Translations under genes and position numbers: made by a program
In this document: positions 2,715-52,772 of the stretch, piece after piece
How positions within the stretch are numbered: the first letter of the stretch is position 1
Layout of the letters: each line of letters starts with the position of its first letter
Assembly: GCF_013248995.1 (NCBI RefSeq)
Contig: NZ_JABRPK010000003.1
Coordinates: 1 to 53,321, forward strand
Direction: 5' to 3'
Origin: Frigoribacterium sp. VKM Ac-2836
GTDB taxonomy: Bacteria > Actinomycetota > Actinomycetes > Actinomycetales > Microbacteriaceae
Length of the DNA stretch: 53,321 nt
The notes under the pieces: model-generated
Database searches by the model: none
Told to the model about the DNA's origin: nothing
What the model saw: only the letters and a program-made list of their open reading frames with translations

Positions 2715-2822
2715 TGCTCGCGTGGCCACCACCACCGGCGGCGTCTTCGGCCTCGCCGAGCAGGGGCGGAGTGCCGGCTTCGCGGGCCCAGAGATGTACT
2801 CGTCCGTCGGCGCTCAGTTCGT

Positions 2823-2975
2823 GTGCAATTCGCGACCATGCAGGGGTGACACGCCGCCTTCGTGTCGCGGCTGGCGCCTCCTGCGGTGTCTTTTGTCGCG
2901 ATGTGCACGGGCAGGGCTCTTCGGCAGGTCGGGTTCGGCGCAGCCGGGGTGTGCGGCAGGTCGAATTCGGCCGGG
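2823..2975 (+). repeat. Dispersed palindromic intergenic element, copy A (degenerate)
   Basis: Shares ordered blocks with the elements at 23031-23149 (inverted) and 52358-52481. They are TGCAATTCGCGAC (2823-2835), GACACGCCG (2848-2856), a partial complementary arm GCGGTGTC (2883-2890), CAGGTCGGGTTCGGCGC (2926 on) and a second CAGGTCGAATTCGGCC (2958 on). It carries about 34 extra bases and a second CGCGATGTGCAC block compared with the other copies. It sits in the gene-free stretch between tRNA-Gln and the purL terminator. I see no credible gene in 2715-3115: the open frames there are alternative readings of GC-rich DNA. Confidence 0.7.
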
Positions 2976-22989: not shown

Positions 22990-23030
22990 GGTGCGCGTGC
23001 GGGGCGGTACGACCGCAGCGGAGGTGGACC

Positions 23031-23149
23031 GTGCCGAACCCGACCTGAGAGGGGGCGTCGGTGGTGCCGAACCCGACACTCGGCGGGCGACACGCCGACT
23101 GTCGCCTGCGTCGGACGGCGTGTCGCGCCTCCGTTGTCGCGATTTGCAC
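23031..23149 (-). repeat. Dispersed palindromic intergenic element, copy B
   Basis: Read on the minus strand this has the same blocks in the same order as copy C at 52358-52481: GTGCAAATCGCGACA, then GCGACACGCCG (complement of 23116-23126), then CGGCGTGTCGC (complement of 23087-23097), then GTGTCGGGTTCGGCAC (23064-23078) and GTCGGGTTCGGCAC (23031-23044). The central arms are a perfect 11-bp inverted repeat. It lies between an intact gene and its decayed duplicate. Confidence 0.8.
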
Positions 23150-23332
23150 AGGTGGGGGAGCCGAAGGGGTGGGCGGGGCGGCGGGTCAGGGGCGGTGGGG
23201 TGGGTGGATGTCGTGGGTGGCGGAGCAGACGGCGACGGAGGCCGCGGCGGACCAGGCCTGGGGGCGGCACGAGGCCGGGTACGGCACGGATGACGGCACC
23301 TCGGTGGCCGGGTCCCCGGAGTGCAGCTCGGG

Positions 23333-43263: not shown

Positions 43264-43670
43264 CTAGACGTCAATCCCCAGCGCGCCGTCGGCGCCGTAG
43301 TTGCTCCCGTGCACCCGCTCCACCTCGAAGGTGTGGACGGCATACCCGATCGAACGGGCCGCCGGCGGTTTGGACGTGAGGGCTCAGTAGATCGACGGGG
43401 TGGCCTGCCACGTGCGACAGATCGGCCCGACCCTGAACTCATCTTTGTGCTCATTGATGAACTTTTTCATCCGCTTGACTCGTAGTCGAGCTCCACCGCA
43501 AAGAAGGCCGACGCCGATTTCAGAGTCGCATGCGCCTGGTGTAACCCCGGACCTACCGCTTGGAGTCCGTGTTCCGGGCTGCATCCATCGCGAGTCGGCC
43601 TGCTCGCTCCGAGGGTATCTCCGGGTACTTCATCTTGGCCCCCATGACCCCCCAGGGGTCCAGACTTTTC
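43264..43670 (-). mobile_element. Decayed IS3-family insertion sequence (orfA/orfB fragments)
   Basis: Three pieces of an IS3 transposase on the minus strand. OrfA N-terminus KYPEIPSERAGRLAMDAARN lies at about 43640-43560. OrfA C-terminus LKSASAFFAVELDYESSG ends at 43467 in another frame. OrfB N-terminus MKKFINEHKDEFRVGPICRT starts near 43470, hits a TGA after ATPSIY, and continues as TSKPPAARSIGYAVHTFEVE and RVHGSNYGADGA to a stop at 43264. The DDE catalytic core is missing, so the element is inactive. GGACCCCTGGGGGGTC near 43655-43672 may be a terminal inverted repeat. The remainder of 42934-43984 shows no supportable gene. Confidence 0.8.
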
Positions 43671-52305: not shown

Positions 52306-52360
52306 GGCCGTGGCCGTGGCCGCGGCCGTGGCCGTGGCCGTGGCCGTGGCCGTGGCCGTG
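52306..52360. repeat. Hexanucleotide tandem repeat
   Basis: About nine units of GGCCGT (one GGCCGC), ending directly at dispersed element copy C. It is noncoding: it starts 22 bp after the RND stop. Confidence 0.85.
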
Positions 52361-52481
52361 CAATTCGCGACGACGGGCCGTCGACACGCCGCTCAGTGCT
52401 CGTCCGGAGCGGCGTGTCGAATCGTAGGTGTCGGGTTCGGCACGCCGCGATGCGGTCGGCCGGTCGGGTTCGGTATGCCGG
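52358..52481 (+). repeat. Dispersed palindromic intergenic element, copy C
   Basis: The best preserved copy. GTGCAATTCGCGACG (52358 on), then TCGACACGCCGCTC (52381-52394) forming a perfect 14-bp inverted repeat with 52407-52420, then GTGTCGGGTTCGGCACGCCG (52428 on) and GGTCGGGTTCGGTATGCCGG (52462-52481). The same blocks in the same order occur in copy B on the opposite strand. The remaining gap 52482-52772 is the leader of the next gene; I see no other feature in it. Confidence 0.8.
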
Positions 52482-52772
52482 GAGAGACCGGTGGGCCGCC
52501 CACCGACCCGAGGAGGCGGGGCTTCCGGTTCGGGGGAGGGTCGGGTATCGTAGGTGGGTCGGCTCAAGACACCGCGCCTGTGGCGCGAGCACATCGGCAC
52601 CTGCGGGGGCCGATCATGCACAGCTTTGAACAGCACGAGGGTTTGTAAGTCTTGTGGGCCGGATTCCCGTCGAGTCACGACGGGATGAATTCACGATTGT
52701 GAACGGTCCTGGTCAACGGCTGCCCGGGTATTTCTTCGCGTCATCTCTGACAAGCCCGGAAAGAACTCCTCC

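Follow-up and report, generated by a model that had tools for sequence, protein, structure and literature searches.

A stretch of 53,321 bp from the genome of Frigoribacterium sp. VKM Ac-2836, referred to as the window, contains three copies of a dispersed intergenic element, which recurs with a fixed geometry at 30 sites of the same genome. Motif and spacing of the element are conserved between species, and two of its copies enclose, in inverted orientation, a single gene coding for a predicted nuclease. Three motif types are dispersed within the genus, and many relatives of the gene are bracketed by inverted units in other genera as well. With a probability of about 0.7, the elements would be arrays of binding sites for one protein, the product of the bracketed gene, acting as a vertically inherited homing-type nuclease. 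The window corresponds to C4:1-53321 of the genome (3.27 Mb, 10 contigs), labelled G000; in the following, C1, C3, C4 and so on indicate contigs, while G and L, followed by a number, indicate genomes and loci, respectively.

Copies, anatomy and conservation of the element

A first-pass annotation of the window had proposed a dispersed intergenic element with further copies, and these were found at the 30 sites of the genome and in five of 15 congeners. The window would not by itself have proved the element, as GTGCAAWTCGCGAC, which matches perfectly at 2823, 23136 (minus strand) and 52358, is found 13 times when up to 3 mismatches are allowed, against a shuffle mean of 12.4, with no enrichment. 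In genome-wide searches, chance is excluded by the 37 matches of TGTGCAAWTCGCGACA (up to 2 mismatches) and the 53 matches of GTCGGGTTCGGYAYG (up to 1 mismatch), against 0 and 1, respectively, for the reversed controls; GAGCGGCGTGTCG, with up to 1 mismatch, is noisy, giving 84 matches against 34 reversed. Clustering the matches to these three sequences produced 36 candidates, six of which were removed, two being palindromes without the U units defined below (C3:807083, C5:81918) and four lacking the element architecture (C5:72607, C5:77500, C5:107229, C7:62500).

Each element starts with a unit named U' (TGTGCAAWTCGCGACA), followed, after about 9-10 free bases, by a half-site named P (CGACACGCCGCTC) and, after about 12 more, by the reversed P (GAGCGGCGTGTCG). 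About 10 free bases further on stands the unit U (GTCGGGTTCGGCACG or GTCGCGAWTTGCACA), in the sense opposite to U'; additional U units follow with a period of about 33 bp, for 2-4 U units per array. Both forms of U are found at the same position, one array of G159 switching form in its later units, and both are probably read by one protein. The distance from U' to U, examined over the range 69-75 bp, is 72 bp in 22 elements, 71 bp in 7 and 73 bp in one, which corrects the spacing of 71 bp originally given for copies B and C between the first block and the next. Judged from its sequence, the element is a rigid array of spaced half-sites rather than a hairpin.

The inner palindromes had been taken as the sign of a folded DNA or RNA, whose pairing would be conserved above its loop sequence. 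They are indeed perfect in two window copies, B and C (11 and 14 bp), but the conclusion was not supported by the 22 elements spaced at 72 bp, to which the count was restricted, leaving out the eight at 71 or 73 bp. The pairing fraction of the P arms at offsets 24-33 is 0.68-0.82, close to the 0.64-0.83 predicted from independent columns, with offsets 28 and 35 slightly over expectation (0.73 vs 0.64 and 0.68 vs 0.58). Only one P arm is retained in 10 of these 22 elements, and no covariation of the arms was found among them.

Conservation was evaluated by comparing the elements with the orthologous places in G158 and G159, in a total of 18 pairs; two were left out, C3:413077 with L276, which is not orthologous, and C4:23150 with L285, where the stretch does not reach the site. 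Identity is 92% in U', 94% in U and 91% in the second U, 90 and 88% in the P arms, 82% in the loop and 64, 75 and 78% in the spacers; the flanks, partly coding, show 75 and 80%, or 85 and 83% ignoring gaps. Five of the 2,160 element positions are deleted; in the flanks the figures are 119 of 1,045 (left) and 39 of 1,109 (right). Within the 86-bp core 37 columns are inserted, 33 of them forming a single complete unit in the G158 bracketing locus. As the units are conserved and insertions or deletions few, while the spacers drift, motif and spacing are apparently under selection. Where an orthologous stretch exists, the element is retained at 8 of 9 sites in G159 and at all 10 in G158. The element at C3:362600-362753 is present in G000 and G158 and absent from G159, and one at C1:2533345 of G158 is absent from both G000 and G159; neither of these two highly diverged sites shows a clean boundary at which the terminal inverted repeats and target-site duplication of an IS or MITE could be read.

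In the window, the shared blocks stand where they were first placed at all three sites, which were read directly and matched block by block. Copy C, on the plus strand, is composed of U' (GTGCAATTCGCGAC) at 52358..52371, the left and right P half-sites (CGACACGCCGCTC and GAGCGGCGTGTCG) at 52382..52394 and 52407..52419, U (GTCGGGTTCGGCACG) at 52430..52444, 72 bp from U', and a second U (GTCGGGTTCGGTATG) at 52463..52477, 33 bp beyond the first. Copy B, on the minus strand, has U' (TGTGCAAATCGCGACA) at 23135..23150, the P half-sites, left and right by element orientation, at 23116..23125 and 23088..23097, U (GTCGGGTTCGGCACC) at 23063..23077 and, again 33 bp beyond it, a second U (GTCGGGTTCGGCACG) at 23030..23044. 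Copy A, on the plus strand, contains U' (TGTGCAATTCGCGACC) at 2822..2837 and a left P half-site (TGACACGCCG) at 2847..2856; its right arm is degenerate, and the inner inverted pair described for all three sites is recognisable in B and C, with only the left arm in A. The roughly 34 extra bases reported in copy A are present, not as an insertion but as one whole U unit in the GTCGCGATGTGCAC form, previously overlooked (2895..2908). Since this unit lies 72 bp after U', with a second U (GTCGGGTTCGGCGC) at 2928..2941, 33 bp beyond the first, and a third (GTCGAATTCGGCCG) at 2960..2973, 32 bp beyond the second, site A shares the geometry of the other copies. Where two spaced U copies were described at first, the arrays vary between 2 and 4 units and may also extend leftward (C4:117589-117709). 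No match to Rfam was found at the three sites, in agreement with the earlier statement that no known RNA family could be recognised.

Of the 30 sites, 17 lie between tandem genes, 9 between convergent and 4 between divergent ones, roughly the proportions of the background (54, 32 and 21), as judged by crude gene calls, which were based only on GC content at third codon positions and were wrong in several cases, with elements overlapping called open reading frames and the nuclease gene missed. A terminator or an orientation-specific role was rejected, as these calls show no orientation bias. Nine of the 30 elements are found on contig C4 (220,151 bp, about 7% of the genome), which holds the window and, in the stretches compared, shows the same order as a 218,853-bp contig of G158; a separate replicon is one possibility, a repeat-bounded piece another.

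Other sequences occur near the elements. A separate family of palindromes, approximately GAGATGTCAcGACRYGCCGCTCA...TGAGCGGCRYGTCGTGACATCTC, has the P half-site without U units. Its members lie at C5:81899-81936 and C3:807065-807102 of G000 and, in G158 and G159, at the places corresponding to C3:362600 and C3:374000, two sites at which the palindrome substitutes for the element or accompanies it. A second short motif, approximately GAGGAGGCGCGG(GTC), is recurrent beside many elements of this genome and in array spacers, and a shorter form of it lies at 52509-52519 of the window. The window also contains, at 43396-43509 on the minus strand, a match scoring above gathering to the ALIL pseudoknot (RF01497), a frameshift signal of IS3-type transposases.

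The bracketed gene and the distribution of its motifs

The outer U' units of the two inverted elements, at C1:284132 and C1:285430, are separated by 1.3 kb, and the elements enclose a single gene of 289 amino acids (C1:284327-285193). It lies between a phospholipase-D-type gene and tRNA-Tyr, with an inositol-monophosphatase gene also among the neighbours; no AbiEii toxin gene adjoins it, the search being limited to these neighbours. The predicted protein is formed by a DNA-binding region with AbiEi-like fold (residues 1-191), made up of an N-terminal winged helix-turn-helix and a middle domain (6y8q), and by a nuclease domain (193-289), in which the EDxHD/Vsr-like fold and its acidic and histidine active-site residues are recognised. 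Comparison of the C-terminal domain with Pfam gave matches to REase_MTES_1575, always under cut-off, and to DUF559, over cut-off in 4 of 7 cases. Five positions, acidic or histidine, do not vary, and ECxS takes the place of ExDG in the Frigoribacterium orthologues. A tblastn search of plasmids with the PhB24 protein (L203) gave nothing.

Bracketing was read by eye at nine orthologous Frigoribacterium loci, five of which reach the flank-score threshold of 15 described below, and tRNA-Tyr adjoins all nine (ARAGORN). The close orthologues, from G159 (91% identity), G153 (87%), G158 (85%) and G151 (67%), are enclosed by units of the type described above (type I); those from G152 and G110 (54-55%) by CGCAAATGCCGACC units (type II); those from G160 and G150 (44 and 39%) by ATTTGAGAGYGATCSG units (type III). 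The three bracketing motif types thus track the groups of protein identity. In the G110 assembly, the N-terminus seen in the other orthologues is missing from the reading frame of the type II gene (L155, G110:C1:1192273-1193031), which may be decaying there.

Dispersal was counted over 16 Frigoribacterium genomes, G000 included. For type I, exact U' matches number 20 in G000, 15 in G151, 22 in G153, 29 in G158, 10 in G159 and 9 in G162, with none in the other 10 genomes and none reversed throughout. Type II (up to 1 mismatch) gives 46 in G152, 41 in G110, 32 in G160, 25 in G161 and 11 in G150, against 0-2 in the other 11 genomes and 0-3 reversed; type III (up to 2 mismatches) 34 each in G150 and G110, 22 in G160, 12 in G152 and 9 in G161, against 0-2 in the other 11 and 0 reversed. 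All five genomes with a close orthologue are among the six positive for type I (Fisher's exact test, 6/4368 = 0.0014, kinship ignored). G162 and G161 have elements and no close orthologue, and the range of types II and III likewise extends to genomes beyond those of their nuclease; by analogy with REPINs without RAYT, we read elements without the matching nuclease as relics. A further unit, GTCGGCAACTCCTG (type IV), is present in all 16 genomes, with 9-59 copies against 1-5 reversed, and encloses more distant nuclease paralogues, for instance in G154.

Among the matches listed, many type IV units, although not every one, have a paralogous nuclease gene no more than about 100 kb away, as would be expected of local spread (G154:C5:352-473 kb and 1090-1179 kb; G150:C1:959-1046 kb; G151:C4:24-136 kb; G152:C1:372-380 kb). 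In G152, two to three whole type II elements form head-to-tail clusters with a period of 125-134 bp (C2:980042-980392, 930281-930488, 1006900-1007114). A replication-origin bias was considered and dropped, as no dnaA was seen by eye in the translated first 4 kb of G110, which is a single contig.

Outside the genus, a profile of the orthologues has matches in 199 of the 299 genomes sampled from Microbacteriaceae, covering 64 of the 85 genera (E <=1e-20). Bracketing was measured by a flank score, the best inverted match between upstream and downstream flank, with a threshold of 15, the 99th percentile of 400 mismatched pairs. Sixty nuclease loci were tried and 57 scored, three being too short; 29 are from Frigoribacterium and 28 from other genera. 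The threshold is reached by 25 of the 57, which include near relatives and are therefore not independent, against 3 of 143 other genes and 3.1% of 582 random windows, both drawn from stretches of Frigoribacterium genomes. For matches in direct sense the figures are 15 of 57 and 3.4% of 500 random windows. Around the gene in Cryobacterium, in two Agromyces and in an Amnibacterium metagenome-assembled genome, inverted units were recognised by eye, their sequences being new; the flanks of a Herbiconiux one, also read by eye, gave no trustworthy units. tRNA-Tyr was found at all five nuclease loci scanned from three other genera, and dapA-like and sdhB-like flanks, assigned by reading and without a family search, are further neighbourhoods common to genera. 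The relation of flank similarity to protein identity across genera is confounded by synteny.

A strict composite pattern of the element is found in one of 150 genomes of the family, G000 itself; being tied to its own motif, the pattern is blind to relatives with other motifs. One such motif, TCCGAAATGACGGA, gives 54 matches in G135 and 63 in G298 (up to 2 mismatches); G230 has an exact unit around its nuclease, yet 10 matches in the genome, and 22 other genomes show 3-35 against 0-7 reversed. The low count of G230 and the matches in other genomes make dispersal across genera noisy, the convincing part being inverted pairs 69-72 bp apart in G135.

Distances between neighbouring inverted units up to 150 bp apart were collected among the matches listed. 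They are 71-72 or 104-105 bp in 14 of 15 type I pairs, 69-70 bp in 46 of 48 type II pairs, 61-62, 71-74 or 82-84 bp in 46 of 47 type IV pairs and 69-72 bp in 10 of 15 pairs from G135 and G230. The distinct values are few, and vector lengths of 0.47-0.97 over periods 10-11 make the 11-bp period a pattern rather than the outcome of a formal test. Helical phasing along double-stranded DNA would give steps of about 10.5-11 bp such as these, and also the 33-bp period of the arrays; the fixed spacing and these steps point to proteins on double-stranded DNA, not to a folded nucleic acid.

Proposed mechanism and rival explanations

Binding, cutting and mobility are all inferred from sequence; binding is the best-supported step, and it is highly probable that the protein of the bracketed gene binds the elements as its cognate sites. 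AbiEi is described as binding paired 23-bp inverted repeats and bending DNA, the repeats being separated by 3 bp in one system and by 13 bp in another (PMC7319586), lengths that differ by about one helical turn; I-Bth0305I is described as a dimer on nearly 60 bp of DNA (PMC3943268). Joining the two leads to a model with two monomers on U' and U. Each monomer would read a single U unit by its winged helix-turn-helix; the two monomers bound to an inverted pair would face the same side of the helix, meet through their AbiEi-like middle domains and bend the DNA, so that both nuclease domains come to lie over the P palindrome in the centre. At its own gene, the protein would act in autoregulation. 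At dispersed sites, it would nick or cut, leading in the long term to spread, conversion or homogenisation of the elements, much as RAYT proteins act on REPINs. The gene would be stationary and vertically inherited, protein and motif co-evolving fast, so that related species would differ in motif. Since dispersed sites are conserved, either the bound sites would matter to the host or the nuclease would keep maintaining them. The chances that the elements spread by means of the nuclease appear evenly balanced, and a role useful to the host is put forward more tentatively.

Conservation at dispersed sites mostly common to the species would also be expected if a regulator or architectural protein working across the chromosome used the elements as operators, a domesticated nuclease fold bending or regulating and host selection acting alone, with no mobility. 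This is possible, at less than even odds; the presence of the nuclease genes at loci common to several genera and the replacement of ExDG by ECxS in Frigoribacterium favour it. Against it stand the absence of promoter bias in the contexts given above, subject to the crude gene calls, and motifs wholly different among congeners, which would be odd in a conserved regulon; the five positions remain invariant, and the tandem clusters of whole elements in G152 resemble copying.

The bracketing could be incidental, elements piling up in permissive intergenic DNA of which the nuclease locus is one instance. Elements are common in these genomes and many nuclease loci are without clear bracketing, but this explanation is very improbable given the excess of bracketed nuclease loci over other genes and the nine orthologous loci at which the motif type changes with the protein. 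Slightly less credit still is due to the structured RNA, or single-stranded DNA element, proposed at first from the perfect complementarity of the inner arms of B and C: pairing shows no consistent excess, many elements are one-armed, and lengths are fixed, with allowed spacings in steps of about 11 bp, while spacer sequence is free. The RNA or hairpin reading was rejected on the lack of an Rfam match (three sites) and of covariation (22 elements). Least probable is a REP/REPIN family mobilised by a missed or lost RAYT (Y1 transposase). The elements are dispersed, intergenic, partly palindromic, paired and clustered, and sites persist in genomes without a close nuclease gene; against this, a different gene is bracketed at the nine loci, and no match to PF01797 was found in G000, to which the search for a RAYT was confined, while 5 of 14 control genomes match. 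Binding arrays of the bracketed nuclease remain the preferred reading.

Comparison with known systems

The C-terminal domain shares with REase_MTES_1575 and DUF559 the match to both Pfam models, and MTES_1575 is described as a restriction endonuclease domain of the Vsr family (PMC3710099). With AbiEi, the antitoxin of a type IV toxin-antitoxin system, the protein shares the N-terminal winged helix-turn-helix and the middle domain; it differs in the fused nuclease domain, in having sites genome-wide instead of at one promoter only, and in its neighbours, which are the phospholipase-D-type, tRNA-Tyr and inositol-monophosphatase genes, without an adjoining AbiEii. Compared to the EDxHD homing endonuclease I-Bth0305I, the gene is bacterial and resides at a shared locus, target-like sites are many per genome, and an AbiEi-like part is present.

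REPtrons are described as dispersed intergenic repeats, often in inverted pairs or clusters, bracketing a cognate nuclease-type gene that is vertically inherited, with repeats persisting where the gene is missing (PMC3733652, PMC8049555). All these traits are common to both systems: the 30 sites and the G152 clusters conform to the dispersed intergenic pairs and clusters of REPs. The hairpin arms do not recur; spaced half-sites without covariation take the place of hairpins tagged by GTAG or CGTC, and an AbiEi-like plus EDxHD/Vsr-like protein that of the Y1 HUH enzyme. As Y1 transposase and hairpin, both defining for REPtrons, were not found in G000 and in the 22 elements compared, respectively, the element is not a member of that class.

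DUF559 was not found in the open-licence literature together with 'inverted repeats' or with AbiEi, nor was a description of such a nuclease paired with its own genomic repeats. On this literature, the pairing looks previously undescribed. An AbiEi-EDxHD fusion, widespread in Microbacteriaceae, may define a new repeat-nuclease class, in which each lineage founds, spreads and maintains its own phased arrays, a second, independent instance of the REPIN-RAYT way of life with nuclease and site co-evolving at fixed loci; we give this generalisation about equal odds for and against. It would offer a definite hypothesis about a nuclease family whose relatives are present in two thirds of the sampled genomes, and the several natural protein-site pairs of differing specificity would be material for studies of target change. 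REPINs and RAYTs pose the puzzle of dispersed repeats and a domesticated nuclease persisting very long without known benefit; if the reading is true, the same logic has been assembled from unrelated protein and site parts, such a way of life has evolved more than once, and its cause becomes testable by comparison.
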